Below are positions 56,593 through 62,514 of a DNA stretch of 64,000 bases, in pieces. Numbering within the stretch: the first letter of the stretch is position 1; each line of letters opens with the position of its first letter. The translations under genes and the position numbers were made by a program. Source of the stretch: Methanolobus zinderi (GTDB taxonomy: Archaea > Halobacteriota > Methanosarcinia > Methanosarcinales > Methanosarcinaceae); contig NZ_CP058215.1 in the NCBI RefSeq assembly GCF_013388255.1, positions 2,595,332 through 2,659,331 of the forward strand, given 5' to 3'. The notes below the pieces were generated by a model. The model made no database searches and was not told the DNA's origin. It saw only the letters and a program-made list of their open reading frames with translations.

Positions 56593-56828
56593 GCCCTATC
56601 TTAGGGTTGTACTATTCATATATGTTTTGTTTTGGCAAATAAGAAGATTTCAAAATACCACAAAAGAATATAGTTTGAAAAAGTGTCTAAAAAACAAGAT
56701 GCTATAAAATCAACTTCAAAATGAAAGATTTGATGCCCGGAGCGGGGATAAATCCCTAAATTTTATGCCAGTCTAATACTTTCACTTTACTAACTTTACC
56801 TATTTTTACCAGTTGGCTAATAGGTTTC

Positions 56829-56898
56829 TTGGGCTGTGGTGGCTAATCGCCTGCAAAAGGGCGATCTAAGTTGACTAGACTTAGGAACCACAGCCCAA
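56829..56898 (-). ncRNA. candidate three-way-junction RNA
   Basis: A 70-nt element. TTGGGCTGTGGT (56829-56840) pairs perfectly over 12 bp with ACCACAGCCCAA (56887-56898). Inside are two perfect 6-bp hairpins: ATCGCC/GGCGAT (56846-56865, 8-nt loop) and CTAAGT/ACTTAG (56866-56884, 7-nt loop). A TATA box lies 19 nt beyond the right end on the minus strand, which puts transcription start at the first stem base. It is not a normal tRNA: there is no T-loop GTTCRA and one arm is missing. A cruciform replication or recombination site of the adjoining element is the alternative. Confidence 0.55.
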
Positions 56899-56913
56899 TT
56901 TAGAATTTGGCGA

Positions 56914-56928
56914 AACTTATATATATTG
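56914..56928 (-). promoter_or_regulatory. TATA box for the three-way-junction RNA
   Basis: Minus strand reads AATATATATAAGTTT with an A-rich GAAAC before it as a possible BRE. Its centre is about 25 nt from 56897. It could alternatively serve the plus-strand chain of small genes starting at 56992. Confidence 0.55.
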
Positions 56929-56991: not shown

Positions 56992-57135
56992 ATGCAAACA
57001 AATACGTATAGTAAAGACTTTTTTAGCACAGCATATCAACCAATTAGCGAAAGCTATCTCCGCGGCAATAGATTGCACCATCCTTTGTGGAAATGTGATC
57101 AGACTGAAGTATCTGTCGCGGAGGTACAGGCATGA
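56992..57135 (+). CDS. 47-aa hypothetical, first of an overlapping gene chain
   Basis: ATG at 56992 directly follows the TAA of a six-codon mini-frame (56971-56991), and its TGA overlaps the next ATG (ATGA at 57132). The 47-residue product is polar with several Tyr and Ser and one Cys; I do not recognise it. Support comes from the tight start-stop coupling shared by the following genes, a pattern common in archaeal viruses and plasmids. Confidence 0.4.
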   Translation: MQTNTYSKDFFSTAYQPISESYLRGNRLHHPLWKCDQTEVSVAEVQA

Positions 57136-57606: not shown

Positions 57607-57800
57607 TGGCTAAGGCAAAATACCGATTGAAGGACAACAATGGTAGTGGCATCTATGTCACTATCCCTTCCGAGCTTGCCTTTGCCCTTGGTCTCCGGGA
57701 CCTTAACGGGAACATCATCACCGGCTGTGTCAGGTTCGAGCTTGGCTATGATGATACAGGACCGTATGGTATAATCAGGCCGGCCATTGACCAGGAATGA
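57606..57800 (+). CDS. small AbrB-like DNA-binding candidate
   Basis: A 64-residue protein whose segment GIYVTIPSELAFALGLRD resembles the start of a SpoVT/AbrB swapped-hairpin domain (I-x-IP-x-x-x-x-x-x-LGL). Such proteins act as small repressors or antitoxins in archaeal elements. It overlaps the preceding gene by one base and the next by four (ATGA). Confidence 0.5.
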   Translation: MAKAKYRLKDNNGSGIYVTIPSELAFALGLRDLNGNIITGCVRFELGYDDTGPYGIIRPAIDQE

Positions 57801-59254
57801 AATTCCCTGAACCTGTGACCCATGAGTTCGGCTGTTTTTTGCACATAACAGACCTGAACTTCTACTTTGCAGTGGTCAATTACTTCTCCCACAATGTAGA
57901 TGATCCGTATAATCACTACATCAAGATAGGCCACCGAAACTTCAAGTTCTTCTCAAAACAAGGCGGCCTCTATAATCCAAAAACCAAGAAACTTGCATTT
58001 GAATACATGTTCCACTGGAAGGATGAAACAGGAGCATCAAAATGCAGTTATTCAATTAAACCTCTCTTTGGAGCAGGTACAAAGACAAAAAATGGTAAGG
58101 TCCTCAATCTTCCAACCGTAGGGACTCAGATCCATATCGAATCCTCATATATAGACCTAGACGAACACTTCGATATCATTTTTGAAATAATGGATTTCCT
58201 TGGAGCTTCACGCTTCCAGGATAAGATTGATCGTTCAAGGTCCACCATTTACCAGATGGCCAGGCATGTCCGATATCATGAGCGACACGAACATGATATG
58301 GTAGCCATGCTGCAGGCAATAGAGCAGGAGTCCTCTATGCTCGGAGACTCCAAGCTTGTAAAAACTCTCAAATCCGGTAAATACGATATGTATAAGCTGG
58401 ATAATCCCGATTTTTCAGTATGCAATTTAAGAACTGAATGGCAGCACAGCGTAAAATCATACCGTATCACCAATTTCCTTGACCGTGTACCCGAGGATCC
58501 TCTAAGACATCCCAAACTAGAAGTATTCCTCAAATCCAATACAAAATTAAACCCCTCTATCTCTGAATTCCTTTCCCTGAAAAGAGATCTGGATAAACTC
58601 CTGTATTCTCTTATCAGCTTCCTGAACCAACCCCTAGAGTACGTTTCTGACAACTACTTTAATGCAGAATCTGTTTTCGATCATCGTCATGATCTTCCAG
58701 AATGGGACTATAAGAACCAATCTCACCAGAGCCAGCATATAGACCTTGGAGAGAACATGAGAGCAGTCAAAGCCCTTGCATACATAGCCCTGCAGTCTGA
58801 AGGCTGTGCAGATTTCCGGGATATCCAGGAAGGAACCGAAATACCCGAGCGTTCCCTATGGCGTTACATCAATTACTGGAAATCGGAAGGATATCTCGAC
58901 ACAGTAAGGGAACACTGCACAAAGGTGTTCTTCAAAACAAGGAGCATCTGGGAAGCATCAAAACAGCCCCTTATAGACTTCTGCAGCGCATTCCACATAG
59001 GCTTCAAGAAGATATTCGGTGAGGTGTTCATAGATTCCGGAGTCATCCGACAATACCGGGAACGTGCCAAGAACCTAAGGATAATCAAATCCAAAAAGTC
59101 TGCTAAAAAGTCCCAGGACCAGGAACCTATTATCGTTGATAGTTACAGACATGCCGATAAACTGAGAAAAGAACTAAACGAACTTGGTGTTCATCGTAAG
59201 ATTGGAGTTCGGTCTAGCCACAACACAATGAGATACAGCCGTGTATTCAGTTAG
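57797..59254 (+). CDS. 485-aa mobile-element protein with winged HTH
   Basis: I do not recognise this protein with certainty. The N-terminal 150 residues are beta-rich with many aromatics. A central helical part (RHVRYHERHEHDMVAMLQAI, about 157-176) follows. Residues about 315-375 form a winged HTH (ALQSEGCADFRDIQEGTEIPERSLWRYINYWKSEG is its span, given here only in part: DIQEGTEIPERSLWRYI). The C-terminus is basic. Position at the end of a chain of tiny coupled genes suggests a replication initiator or regulator of a plasmid or virus remnant. No integrase or polymerase motif is visible. It ends in TAG. Confidence 0.6.
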   Translation: MKFPEPVTHEFGCFLHITDLNFYFAVVNYFSHNVDDPYNHYIKIGHRNFKFFSKQGGLYNPKTKKLAFEYMFHWKDETGASKCSYSIKPLFGAGTKTKNGKVLNLPTVGTQIHIESSYIDLDEHFDIIFEIMDFLGASRFQDKIDRSRSTIYQMARHVRYHERHEHDMVAMLQAIEQESSMLGDSKLVKTLKSGKYDMYKLDNPDFSVCNLRTEWQHSVKSYRITNFLDRVPEDPLRHPKLEVFLKSNTKLNPSISEFLSLKRDLDKLLYSLISFLNQPLEYVSDNYFNAESVFDHRHDLPEWDYKNQSHQSQHIDLGENMRAVKALAYIALQSEGCADFRDIQEGTEIPERSLWRYINYWKSEGYLDTVREHCTKVFFKTRSIWEASKQPLIDFCSAFHIGFKKIFGEVFIDSGVIRQYRERAKNLRIIKSKKSAKKSQDQEPIIVDSYRHADKLRKELNELGVHRKIGVRSSHNTMRYSRVFS

Positions 59255-59300: not shown

Positions 59301-61976
59301 TTAGTGTTTATCTCTAATTAGATTGAACTTAAGATTGTTTGAGTCAGCAACTTTGAACTTCATGCCTTCTGCAATGTCTACAGTGTTGTCCTTGCTGAGT
59401 GTAACGGTACATGTGTTCTTCATAACGATAACGTTGGAACCAATAGATTCGACTTCAAGTTTTCCAAACTTGTTGCCGATTTCAATCTCAAGAACATCCT
59501 TGTAGTCAATGAGCCAGAGACCTTCGACTACAACAAGGCTGTCTACTTGACCTTGGAATATATTGGTTACATGCACCCTCATAACTTCAACACCAATCTC
59601 ATCTGCAACATTGGTATTGAATATCCATGTTCCACGTGTTTTGTCACCAGCAATGATTACTCTATCATCTATGAATTCGCCGTTTCTTGATAATTCCATC
59701 CATACTTTGTCACCACTTACATCAATCTGTTTTGCGGTAAGTTCATAACCATTTGGCAGTTCAAGCGCAGAGCCGACTCTCAGGGTATACTTGTCGCCGT
59801 TGTCAAGGAGCAGCTTGGTTAACTTGTCTGGCGTGTTTTTCTTTAATGGAATATACTTATCTCCAAACAAGCCCATGGCGTTATAACTGTCTCCCCAAGC
59901 ACCAGATTCAAAATCAATCTGTTTAATTTGGGTTTCGTACGCAAGTCCACCTTTCATTATATTTCTATCATTGATAAAAGACCCACCGTAAACTTTAAGC
60001 TTTTCTCCGAAAACGAATCCATCAAAGTTAGTTGCGTTCATTTCGATAAAATCATTATCATCTGAACCTATTATATTGTTAAGATCTGTACCAGCATACA
60101 GCCTGCCTCTCACTGAAGCTGTACTTGCTGCTACAGTATCTATAGGATTCACTTTCGCAGCTAGTGGATGTTTTGTATTCACTATATTTGTAAGAATTTC
60201 ATTGTCTAATTTAGCTTTAGAAAGTGATTTTACCTTGGAAAGCTGTTCGACAAATAAATTCCGTACTCCTCGCAGATTAGAACCTGTCAGGTCTGTCCCC
60301 GTCAGGTCTACCTCTAACAGATCTGCCCCTATTAGGCTTGCCCCCGTCAGATTTGCTCCCTTTAGGTTTGCCCATGCTAGGTCTACTTCATTCATGCCCG
60401 CGTCCAGCAAGTCTGCCTCTCTCAGATCTGCATTCAGCAAGCCTGCTCCCTTCAAATTTGCATCCCTCAGTTTTGCCTCTCTCAAATCTGCATCTATCAG
60501 GCTTGCTTTCCTTAGGTCTGCTACTCTCAGGTCTGCCCCCCTAAGGTTTGCCCCCTTTAGGTTTGCCTCCCTTAGGTCTGCTACTCTCAGGTCTGCCCCC
60601 CTCAAGTCTGCCTCCTTCAGATCTGCCCCCCTAAGGTCTGCCTCCCTTAGGTCTGCTCCCCTAAGGTCTGCTCTTGGTTTAATTTCATATTCATGGGAAG
60701 ATGTATCTAACTCAATCTCTTTTGGAGCAATGCTACTGAGAAATAAATAAGTTCCAATGTTAGTTTCTTCAAATTGCTCTTCTCCACTTGAGAGAACATG
60801 AACAATCTTTTCATTTTTGCAGTAATCGTAGTATTCCTCTTTGCCTTCTTCTTTTTTAAAATTTGAAATTGCCTCATCCCTTTTTTCATCATCCATCCTA
60901 GCAATATTCTGAATTTCAAAAAGAATTTTTTGATTCCCTTTAATCTCATCCGTAAACTTAGGTGAAGAGAAGCATAGAATATTCCATTTAATCAAAAGCT
61001 CTTCTTCATATCCTAATTCACCTTTAAGTGATTCTCCTAAAATTCTCATCAAATTTAGTGAATTCAAAAATCGTATAATTTCTCTCTGATTGCCTTTCAA
61101 ACCTTTGACAATTATATCTAAATAGGGATCTAATTCGGAATCAGCTTTTAATTCATCTTTAATGAAAGACCTTATATGATCATCTTTTAGAAGAGGGAGA
61201 TCAAAATTTAGCTGGATCATCTTTTTAATATAGTCCACACCAGAAAAATCTTTTATGCCATTGTATTGAGCATCGATTGCTTTTGCAATCATAGAAATAT
61301 CAGTTCCTATAATGAAAAAGCATCCTTCTTGATCTAAAAATAGATTGATGGATTCTAAAACAGATGCTATATTTTTTGGAGAGCATCTATCCAAATCATC
61401 AATAAAAATTACCATAACTCCATCGTTATCTGTGTATTTACCTTCAGTTTTCTCAAGAACAAATGTTTGAAGTATTGTCTTCATGTAATCTTGGAAAAGG
61501 TCGAAAAATGATAGTTTATTTTGATATTCCGTCTTTCTAGTCCATTTTTCAAGTTCTGGACCATTTCCAAGAGTTAATATTTTCGCCAAATCACTCATCT
61601 GTTTTAACACATCTATTTTTTCAGAACCAACCAGAACTTTAGATTTAAGTTTGTCTAAAAGCCCTTTTCTTTCCATTTCTTCTAAAATTTCGCGTATCAA
61701 AGCTGCAAGCATTGAATCGCATTCTGAATATTTCCATGCATCAAACCATACGGTTTTGACCTTTCTTGTCTGTTTATCCAAAGTAGATTCATCTAATTTA
61801 TTTTTTAATGTTCTCATCAAAGTTGTTTTTCCACTACCCCATTTACCATTAATTGCTACTGTAAAAGGAGTCTTATTATCCTTGTTGAGAATAATTTTTG
61901 ATAAAGAATCTGCGTAATTCTCAAAATTAAAATGACTGGCATTACCTATTGGAGAATCTCTGTAAACTTTGGACAT
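59301..61976 (-). CDS. KAP NTPase / pentapeptide repeat / S-layer (DUF1608) fusion
   Basis: An 891-residue protein; an upstream in-frame ATG at 62000 would add 8 residues, but GGTG precedes 61976. In the longer numbering, a KAP-type P-loop NTPase spans about 20-330 with Walker A GKWGSGKT (52-59) and Walker B VIFIDDLDRC (197-206). About 27 pentapeptide repeats (AxLxx) span 443-577. Residues about 618-890 match a Methanosarcina S-layer domain: GYELTAKQIDVSGDKVWMEL, FQGQVDSLVVVEGLWLID and GMKFKVADSN. There is no signal peptide or membrane helix, so the S-layer domain would be cytosolic. KAP-pentapeptide proteins resemble phage-exclusion ATPases. A defence role is inference. Confidence 0.85.
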   Translation of the reverse strand: MSKVYRDSPIGNASHFNFENYADSLSKIILNKDNKTPFTVAINGKWGSGKTTLMRTLKNKLDESTLDKQTRKVKTVWFDAWKYSECDSMLAALIREILEEMERKGLLDKLKSKVLVGSEKIDVLKQMSDLAKILTLGNGPELEKWTRKTEYQNKLSFFDLFQDYMKTILQTFVLEKTEGKYTDNDGVMVIFIDDLDRCSPKNIASVLESINLFLDQEGCFFIIGTDISMIAKAIDAQYNGIKDFSGVDYIKKMIQLNFDLPLLKDDHIRSFIKDELKADSELDPYLDIIVKGLKGNQREIIRFLNSLNLMRILGESLKGELGYEEELLIKWNILCFSSPKFTDEIKGNQKILFEIQNIARMDDEKRDEAISNFKKEEGKEEYYDYCKNEKIVHVLSSGEEQFEETNIGTYLFLSSIAPKEIELDTSSHEYEIKPRADLRGADLREADLRGADLKEADLRGADLRVADLREANLKGANLRGADLRVADLRKASLIDADLREAKLRDANLKGAGLLNADLREADLLDAGMNEVDLAWANLKGANLTGASLIGADLLEVDLTGTDLTGSNLRGVRNLFVEQLSKVKSLSKAKLDNEILTNIVNTKHPLAAKVNPIDTVAASTASVRGRLYAGTDLNNIIGSDDNDFIEMNATNFDGFVFGEKLKVYGGSFINDRNIMKGGLAYETQIKQIDFESGAWGDSYNAMGLFGDKYIPLKKNTPDKLTKLLLDNGDKYTLRVGSALELPNGYELTAKQIDVSGDKVWMELSRNGEFIDDRVIIAGDKTRGTWIFNTNVADEIGVEVMRVHVTNIFQGQVDSLVVVEGLWLIDYKDVLEIEIGNKFGKLEVESIGSNVIVMKNTCTVTLSKDNTVDIAEGMKFKVADSNNLKFNLIRDKH
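60270..60674 (-). repeat. 15-bp periodic coding repeat (pentapeptides)
   Basis: About 27 tandem 15-bp units encode AxLxx pentapeptides. Near the N-terminal end of the array the DNA itself is almost identical: 60511-60542 and 60571-60602 match over 32 bases, indicating recent duplication of a 60-bp block. Confidence 0.85.
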
Positions 61977-62514
61977 TTTAAAGCACCATTGACAACACAT
62001 ATAAAAATATATAATAACATATTAACTTTCTGATAAAATCATTTCAATGGTAACTGCTCTTTGTTTCCACTGCAACCTATCTATCCATGGTACTGAAATT
62101 TTCTCTTACGATTTTCCTCTAAAAAATCTCCTGCTACTGCTTATGCAATATATTCTATTCCTCTGAAATATCCCACCTACCCAGCATTAGCGCCGCGAAG
62201 CGGCGCTTGTGGCTTTTTTCATCCGTTCCCTTAGGTACACGATTAAGGCGTGTGTGCCACGATTGACCTGTAATGCGATTTTAAGTCTAAAATTGGGTTT
62301 CAAATTTTCCATTCGAAATTGGCCTTGTGTTTTGTAACGCTTAAGTATTATGTACTCTAGCTGTTTTCAAGAATAAGAATTAAAAAATATTGTACTCTTT
62401 TATTATTTGGGACGTTAAATGATTTCTAAGATAATAATGTATCTAAAAAAAGAATGACGAATGTTTTAAATATTATCGTTATGTATTAAACTTGCTTGTA
62501 CAGGAAGTGGATAA
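61977..62514. other. Gene-free gap with a strong GC hairpin
   Basis: No gene is supported. The first part holds the TATA-like ATTATATATTTTTATA (minus strand) for the KAP gene. A GCGCCGC-GAA-GCGGCGC hairpin lies at 62190-62206 with T-rich sequence after it (GGCTTTTTTC), similar to the GC hairpins near 518 and 788. A TATTATCG/ATGTATTAAA stretch just before 62515 may hold the promoter of the PIN gene. Confidence 0.5.

Follow-up and report, generated by a model that had tools for sequence, protein, structure and literature searches.

Inovirus genomes are single-stranded, and in the filamentous phages the hairpins of the intergenic region act as packaging signal and minus-strand origin. In the RNAI/RNAII system of ColE1 and the CopA/CopT system of R1, structured antisense RNAs made from an opposed promoter overlap the leader of the replication transcript. 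To our knowledge, few studies have addressed how archaeal inovirus-like proviruses replicate and are induced. The Methanosarcinaceae have such proviruses, among them that of Methanolobus profundi (MobM), with an excised circle confirmed by PCR (PMC6813254). DUF7845 proteins are rolling-circle initiators, termed Rep-Arvir, and one element carrying them, SNJ2, has a conserved hairpin origin downstream of rep, with an upstream inverted repeat; outside Halobacteria, no structured element near rep proved to be consistently conserved in the 2026 paper describing the family (PMC13107129). In Sulfolobus, the DNA-damage element ANTTTC is bound by Orc1-2 (PMC9738581).

We analysed a 64,000-nucleotide stretch of the Methanolobus zinderi genome (contig NZ_CP058215.1, positions 2,595,332 to 2,659,331; hereafter the window, whose own numbering is used for all coordinates). 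At 56829-56898, assigned to the minus strand, lies a three-way junction in which the perfectly paired 12-bp arms of P1, TTGGGCTGTGGT (56829-56840) and ACCACAGCCCAA (56887-56898), enclose two 6-bp hairpins, P3 (ATCGCC, 56846-56851, with GGCGAT, 56860-56865) and P2 (CTAAGT, 56866-56871, with ACTTAG, 56879-56884). The first-pass annotation had described this closing stem and its two hairpins, and both the sequence and the predicted fold bear it out: the minus-strand RNA of 56829-56898 folds at -32.7 kcal/mol (z -5.35), and none of 200 shuffles was equally stable. A further hairpin, P4/P5 (ACCTATT...AATAGGT, 56798-56825, minus strand), adjoins the junction and extends the conserved fold, as judged from covariation (three of the six pairs of helix 4 changed on both sides) and from individual folds. 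The junction is present once in the genome. An Rfam search of the locus returned nothing at the gathering score and nothing relevant at E <= 5, and there was no tRNA match, in keeping with the earlier view that the structure does not follow tRNA, box C/D or H/ACA rules. No terminator is evident 3' of P4; the hairpin CCCGCTCCGGGC was ruled out as a terminator, being the 3' end of a tRNA.

The same annotation had placed the structure at the edge of a mobile-element-like region, and this edge proves to be the left end of an element 16.35 kb long, integrated upstream of polB in a tRNA-Met gene that contains an intron; the junction is 85 bp inside the element. The element is bounded by a 19-bp exact direct repeat, AGATTTGATGCCCGGAGCG, at 56726-56744 and at the window-equivalent positions 73077-73095. 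The left copy of this att repeat comprises flanking sequence and the 3' terminus of the minus-strand tRNA-Met gene that the element interrupts, such that the 3' tail alone stands beside polB and a complete tRNA-Met gene is re-formed at the other repeat, 16.35 kb away. Most genomes of the genus carry this intron-bearing tRNA-Met gene uninterrupted, immediately upstream of polB; the structure thus travels with the element, and we discarded the idea of a chromosomal small RNA upstream of polB.

The genes of the element, from which it is known here, mark it as an inovirus-like provirus. It encodes a Zot/pI morphogenesis ATPase (PF05707, E 1.3e-9; phrog_197, E 2.3e-18) and, at its right end, a tyrosine integrase, and its virion genes lie on the plus strand; for small coat-like proteins with a signal and a membrane segment, the matches were weak and confined to relatives (phrog_2186, E 0.0024 in G002; Phage_coatGP8, E 0.26). 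The left operon includes a DUF7845 (Rep-Arvir) rolling-circle initiator of 485 aa (57797-59254, plus strand; PF25227, E 2.8e-26, 93.2 bits against a cut-off of 27), for which searches of phage and plasmid collections gave no match. Its first gene is likely to be a 47-aa ORF read from the sequence at 56992-57135 (plus strand), which overlaps the next ORF by ATGA. A long hairpin at 57050-57130 contains the ribosome-binding site of the ORF starting at 57132, and the G002 leader has a long hairpin too, of a different kind. Also inside the provirus, on the minus strand at 59301-62000, is an 899-aa protein with a KAP P-loop NTPase, pentapeptide repeats and an S-layer domain; its NTPase part matches the PADLOC models PDC-S20, PifA and QatA, and the protein is possibly a carried defence gene. 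Provirus and initiator are each of an already described kind.

BLAST and covariance searches, the latter suggested for the Methanosarcinaceae by the first-pass annotation, show that the junction and the P4 hairpin are common to five integrated elements from two genera. BLAST identified three further copies within the genus, and one copy in a second genus (genome G089) was found by a covariance model at E 4e-6, before G089 had entered any model; genome G006 yielded a fragment match only. An initial model (R1) that included the 3' tail produced many weak matches across the family, which we rejected as homologs of the structure, most being a repeated motif without it. Below E 0.2, the model rebuilt without the tail (R2) had no matches beyond the G006 fragment and the five copies. 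Folded singly, all four same-genus copies form P4/P5 and three of the four form the complete junction; in G008, whose element is a remnant of about 2.4 kb retaining both ends, P1 is broken by a deletion. In G002 the module lies away from polB, and a search for the att site of that element did not find one. The same genome has two divergent integrase genes back to back with a repair-type motif between them (L172, 4501-6927), which suggests neighbouring elements. Three further genomes of the genus, G019, G021 and G024, contain weak junction-like sequences (L128 6128-6261, L131 5644-5776 and L132 4623-4756), accompanied by P4-like hairpins and by the motif or a divergent version; they are possibly decayed copies at other sites and were left out of the evidence. 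Scans of IMG/VR for rep, integrase, pI and a TATA-plus-stem pattern gave one useful relative (L138), in which the region between integrase and rep is rich in hairpins but holds no alignable module.

In the five-sequence alignment, 91.9% of cells pair, both sides have changed in 11 of the 28 pairs, and the covariation score exceeds that of all 500 shuffles. When the partners were slid by one to three columns as a control, pairing fell to 34-45% and at most two pairs (0-2) were double-changed. Conservation of pairing among homologs, on which the first-pass annotation had made its candidate depend, is therefore found, and the three-armed structure is real and evolutionarily conserved rather than a product of chance. 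That the arms vary in sequence between elements and yet remain complementary speaks for a folded single strand and against a palindrome read by a protein. From comparison of these genomes, the junction and P4 appear to constitute a selected, folded single strand lying between the integrase and the replication operon in inovirus-like proviruses of the Methanosarcinaceae. In G007 the element shares the module, the integrase and Zot/pI but has, in place of DUF7845, an unrelated protein bearing a conserved HxH, probably an HUH-type Rep. As the module is kept with two unrelated initiators, it is tied to the end of the element and not to one initiator. The HxH Rep-like family (L059, 5916-7313; relatives L212-L216) occurs in several genomes of the order, without a Pfam or PHROGs match.

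A minus-strand TATA box, TATATATA (56925-56918), stops 19 nt short of the first base of P1. The TATA-to-stem spacing remarked on in the first-pass annotation holds well beyond this genome: a minus-strand TATA-like box lies 19-22 nt from P1 in all six elements compared, two of which are barely alignable (the set includes G094, hardly alignable, whose junction was inferred from its stems only). The direction of this box is ambiguous, because the same site (GAAAC + TTATATATA, 56912-56925) reads on the plus strand as BRE and TATA towards the left operon. GAAAC and TATA are invariant in the four Methanolobus copies; the GAAAC BRE is absent in G089. There, a nuclease gene ends directly before the minus box and separates the module from the rep operon, and the box can hardly serve that operon, making the plus reading unlikely in G089.

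At the other end of P1, the plus strand carries an operator-like motif, TAATACTTTCACTTTACTAACTTT (56774-56797), common to host DNA-repair promoters and to the promoter of the element's integrase, followed by a TATA-like box, TATTTTTA (56801-56808), 23 nt from ACTTTC. This is the layout of the host repair promoters, in which ACTTTC mostly stands about 23 nt before a TATA-like box, and it predicts a plus-strand start near 56829, at the first stem base. The distance from the ACTTTC motif to P1 is 48-53 nt in six of six elements. With opposed boxes at fixed spacing from both ends of P1, two promoters seem to start at the ends of one stem.

The 24-bp motif (TAATACTTTCACCCNGCTTGC) precedes TATA-like boxes of host genes (G000 loci L184-L198), which were named by NCBIfam or Pfam models: those for the hef nuclease, radA, recQ, xseA, topA (topoisomerase I), rpa (replication factor A) and a radical-SAM protein linked to repair. 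It also stands before a nucleoside deoxyribosyltransferase gene and before the integrase gene of the element. DP2 was dropped as a target in this genome, the ORF after the site being merely 26 aa. The motif occurs 4-13 times per genome of the genus, against 0-3 times for a reversed control, and from its distribution is a candidate mark of a DNA-repair regulon of the Methanosarcinaceae. Most host sites score 25-33 bits. The integrase copy scores 14.4 and the module copy in this genome 12.0, the latter falling within the maxima of shuffled windows (8.6-15); in relatives the scores are 22.4 (G002), 23.9 (G089) and 19.2 (G006 integrase). The two copies in the element are inverted around att, as integrase arm sites might be, but each shows the host repair-promoter layout, so an operator is the simpler explanation. 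As a probe for the putative regulator of the motif, we propose TAATACTTTCACCCNGCTT.

Evidence on the folded strand points both ways. G.U pairs number 10 when the aligned helices are read on the minus strand and 3 when they are read on the plus, and in G089 the minus reading gives P5 a GAAA loop. For P2, by contrast, pairing is better on the plus strand, and folding energies favour now one strand, now the other. Given the preference of P2, we do not take the G.U bias as proof of strand, and lean, not strongly, towards a minus-strand RNA.

The reading that we favour, tentatively and at somewhat less than an even chance, is that the module is a structured minus-strand RNA, antisense to the beginning of a leader that damage may induce. 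The minus TATA box would give rise to a short structured transcript from the first P1 base, running through the junction and then P4/P5, and this RNA (P1-P2-P3-P4) would be produced in the quiet state. The opposed plus promoter, under the repair-gene motif, would start at the other end of P1, and the first 70 bases of its leader would be complementary to the junction. The minus RNA could then pair with the plus leader and minus transcription collide head-on with the plus promoter, the two together setting a threshold that would hold the left operon down until DNA damage raised the plus promoter; the integrase promoter carries the same motif. This reading is favoured by the covariation, by the spacings of both boxes in six of six elements and by the presence of the motif at repair genes, and also by the G.U count, the GAAA loop of G089 and the G089 nuclease gene before the minus box. 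Counted against it are P2 and the split energies, the plus-direction GAAAC BRE in four copies, the weak motif score here, the lack of an evident terminator after P4, and the position of the G089 nuclease gene between module and rep operon.

Its main rival, in our judgement somewhat unlikely, is that junction and hairpin fold in the viral strand as DNA and act as a minus-strand origin (sso-like) or packaging signal. The element does encode a Zot/pI ATPase typical of inoviruses together with a rolling-circle initiator, and a module upstream of the replication operon that is kept with two unrelated initiators has the initiator-independence expected of one. However, the virion genes are on the plus strand, presumably the strand packaged, and the fold leans to the minus; nor would a single-stranded DNA element have any need of promoter-like boxes at fixed spacing at both of its ends. 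The ambiguous box itself raises another alternative, that the left operon has its plus promoter in the TATA at 56917-56925, while the junction folds at the 5' end of the leader made from the upstream operator promoter, a leader that it would stabilise or whose translation it would delay. GAAAC and TATA do form a BRE and TATA on the plus strand, the plus start is predicted at the first base of the stem and P2 is better paired in that reading, but P4 covaries although its position, ahead of that start, is within the promoter, and G089 has no BRE; we consider a plus-strand leader alone quite unlikely. It is distinctly improbable that the module is a rolling-circle nick origin or recombination site, a cruciform recognised by Rep or integrase. 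In favour of this, att is about 85 bp away, a related integrase, whole or remnant, accompanies the clear module, and the relative SNJ2 has a hairpin origin, yet that origin is downstream of rep (PMC13107129), the structure far exceeds a nick hairpin in length, and it is retained with two unrelated initiators. Double-stranded operator palindromes under a repressor, with no folded strand, would account for inverted repeats within and between promoters but are hardly credible, as a protein that reads sequence does not explain arms that differ among elements and stay complementary.

A limited literature search found neither the structured module nor the repair-gene motif. Upstream of a replication operon, the covarying module is a concrete candidate for an RNA that controls a mobile element or for the element's single-strand origin. 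The motif common to radA, hef, recQ, xseA and rpa allows a direct test for a methanogen damage-response regulon, and its sharing lets one ask whether proviruses respond to the damage regulon of their host. The full extension, an archaeal counterpart of phage induction in which integrase and replication promoters would carry the operator of an undescribed DNA-repair regulon, checked by an antisense three-way-junction RNA, we regard as unlikely.

Like the intergenic region of the filamentous phages, the module presents stable hairpins upstream of an inovirus replication gene, but here the lean is to the non-coding strand and the function is putative. If both promoters are used, the RNA would overlap an opposed replication leader as do RNAI/RNAII of ColE1 and CopA/CopT of R1; unlike those, it is archaeal, its antisense action is putative, and the two starts would lie at the ends of one junction. 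The ACTTTC core of the repair promoters resembles the ANTTTC element in DNA-repair gene promoters of Sulfolobus (PMC9738581), a lead that may reflect chance, the motif here being much longer and from another phylum. With the Methanolobus profundi MobM type, the provirus shares its host family, the Zot/pI-type ATPase, direct-repeat integration and a chronic-virus gene set, and differs in its structured intergenic module and repair-type operator, neither of which was found in a search of PMC6813254. Finally, as in Rep-Arvir elements of the SNJ2 type, a DUF7845 initiator, an integrase, insertion in a tRNA gene and structured DNA near the replication genes occur together; the origins of those elements are short hairpins downstream of rep (PMC13107129), whereas here a junction and a hairpin lie upstream of the operon, in a module also found with an HxH Rep.
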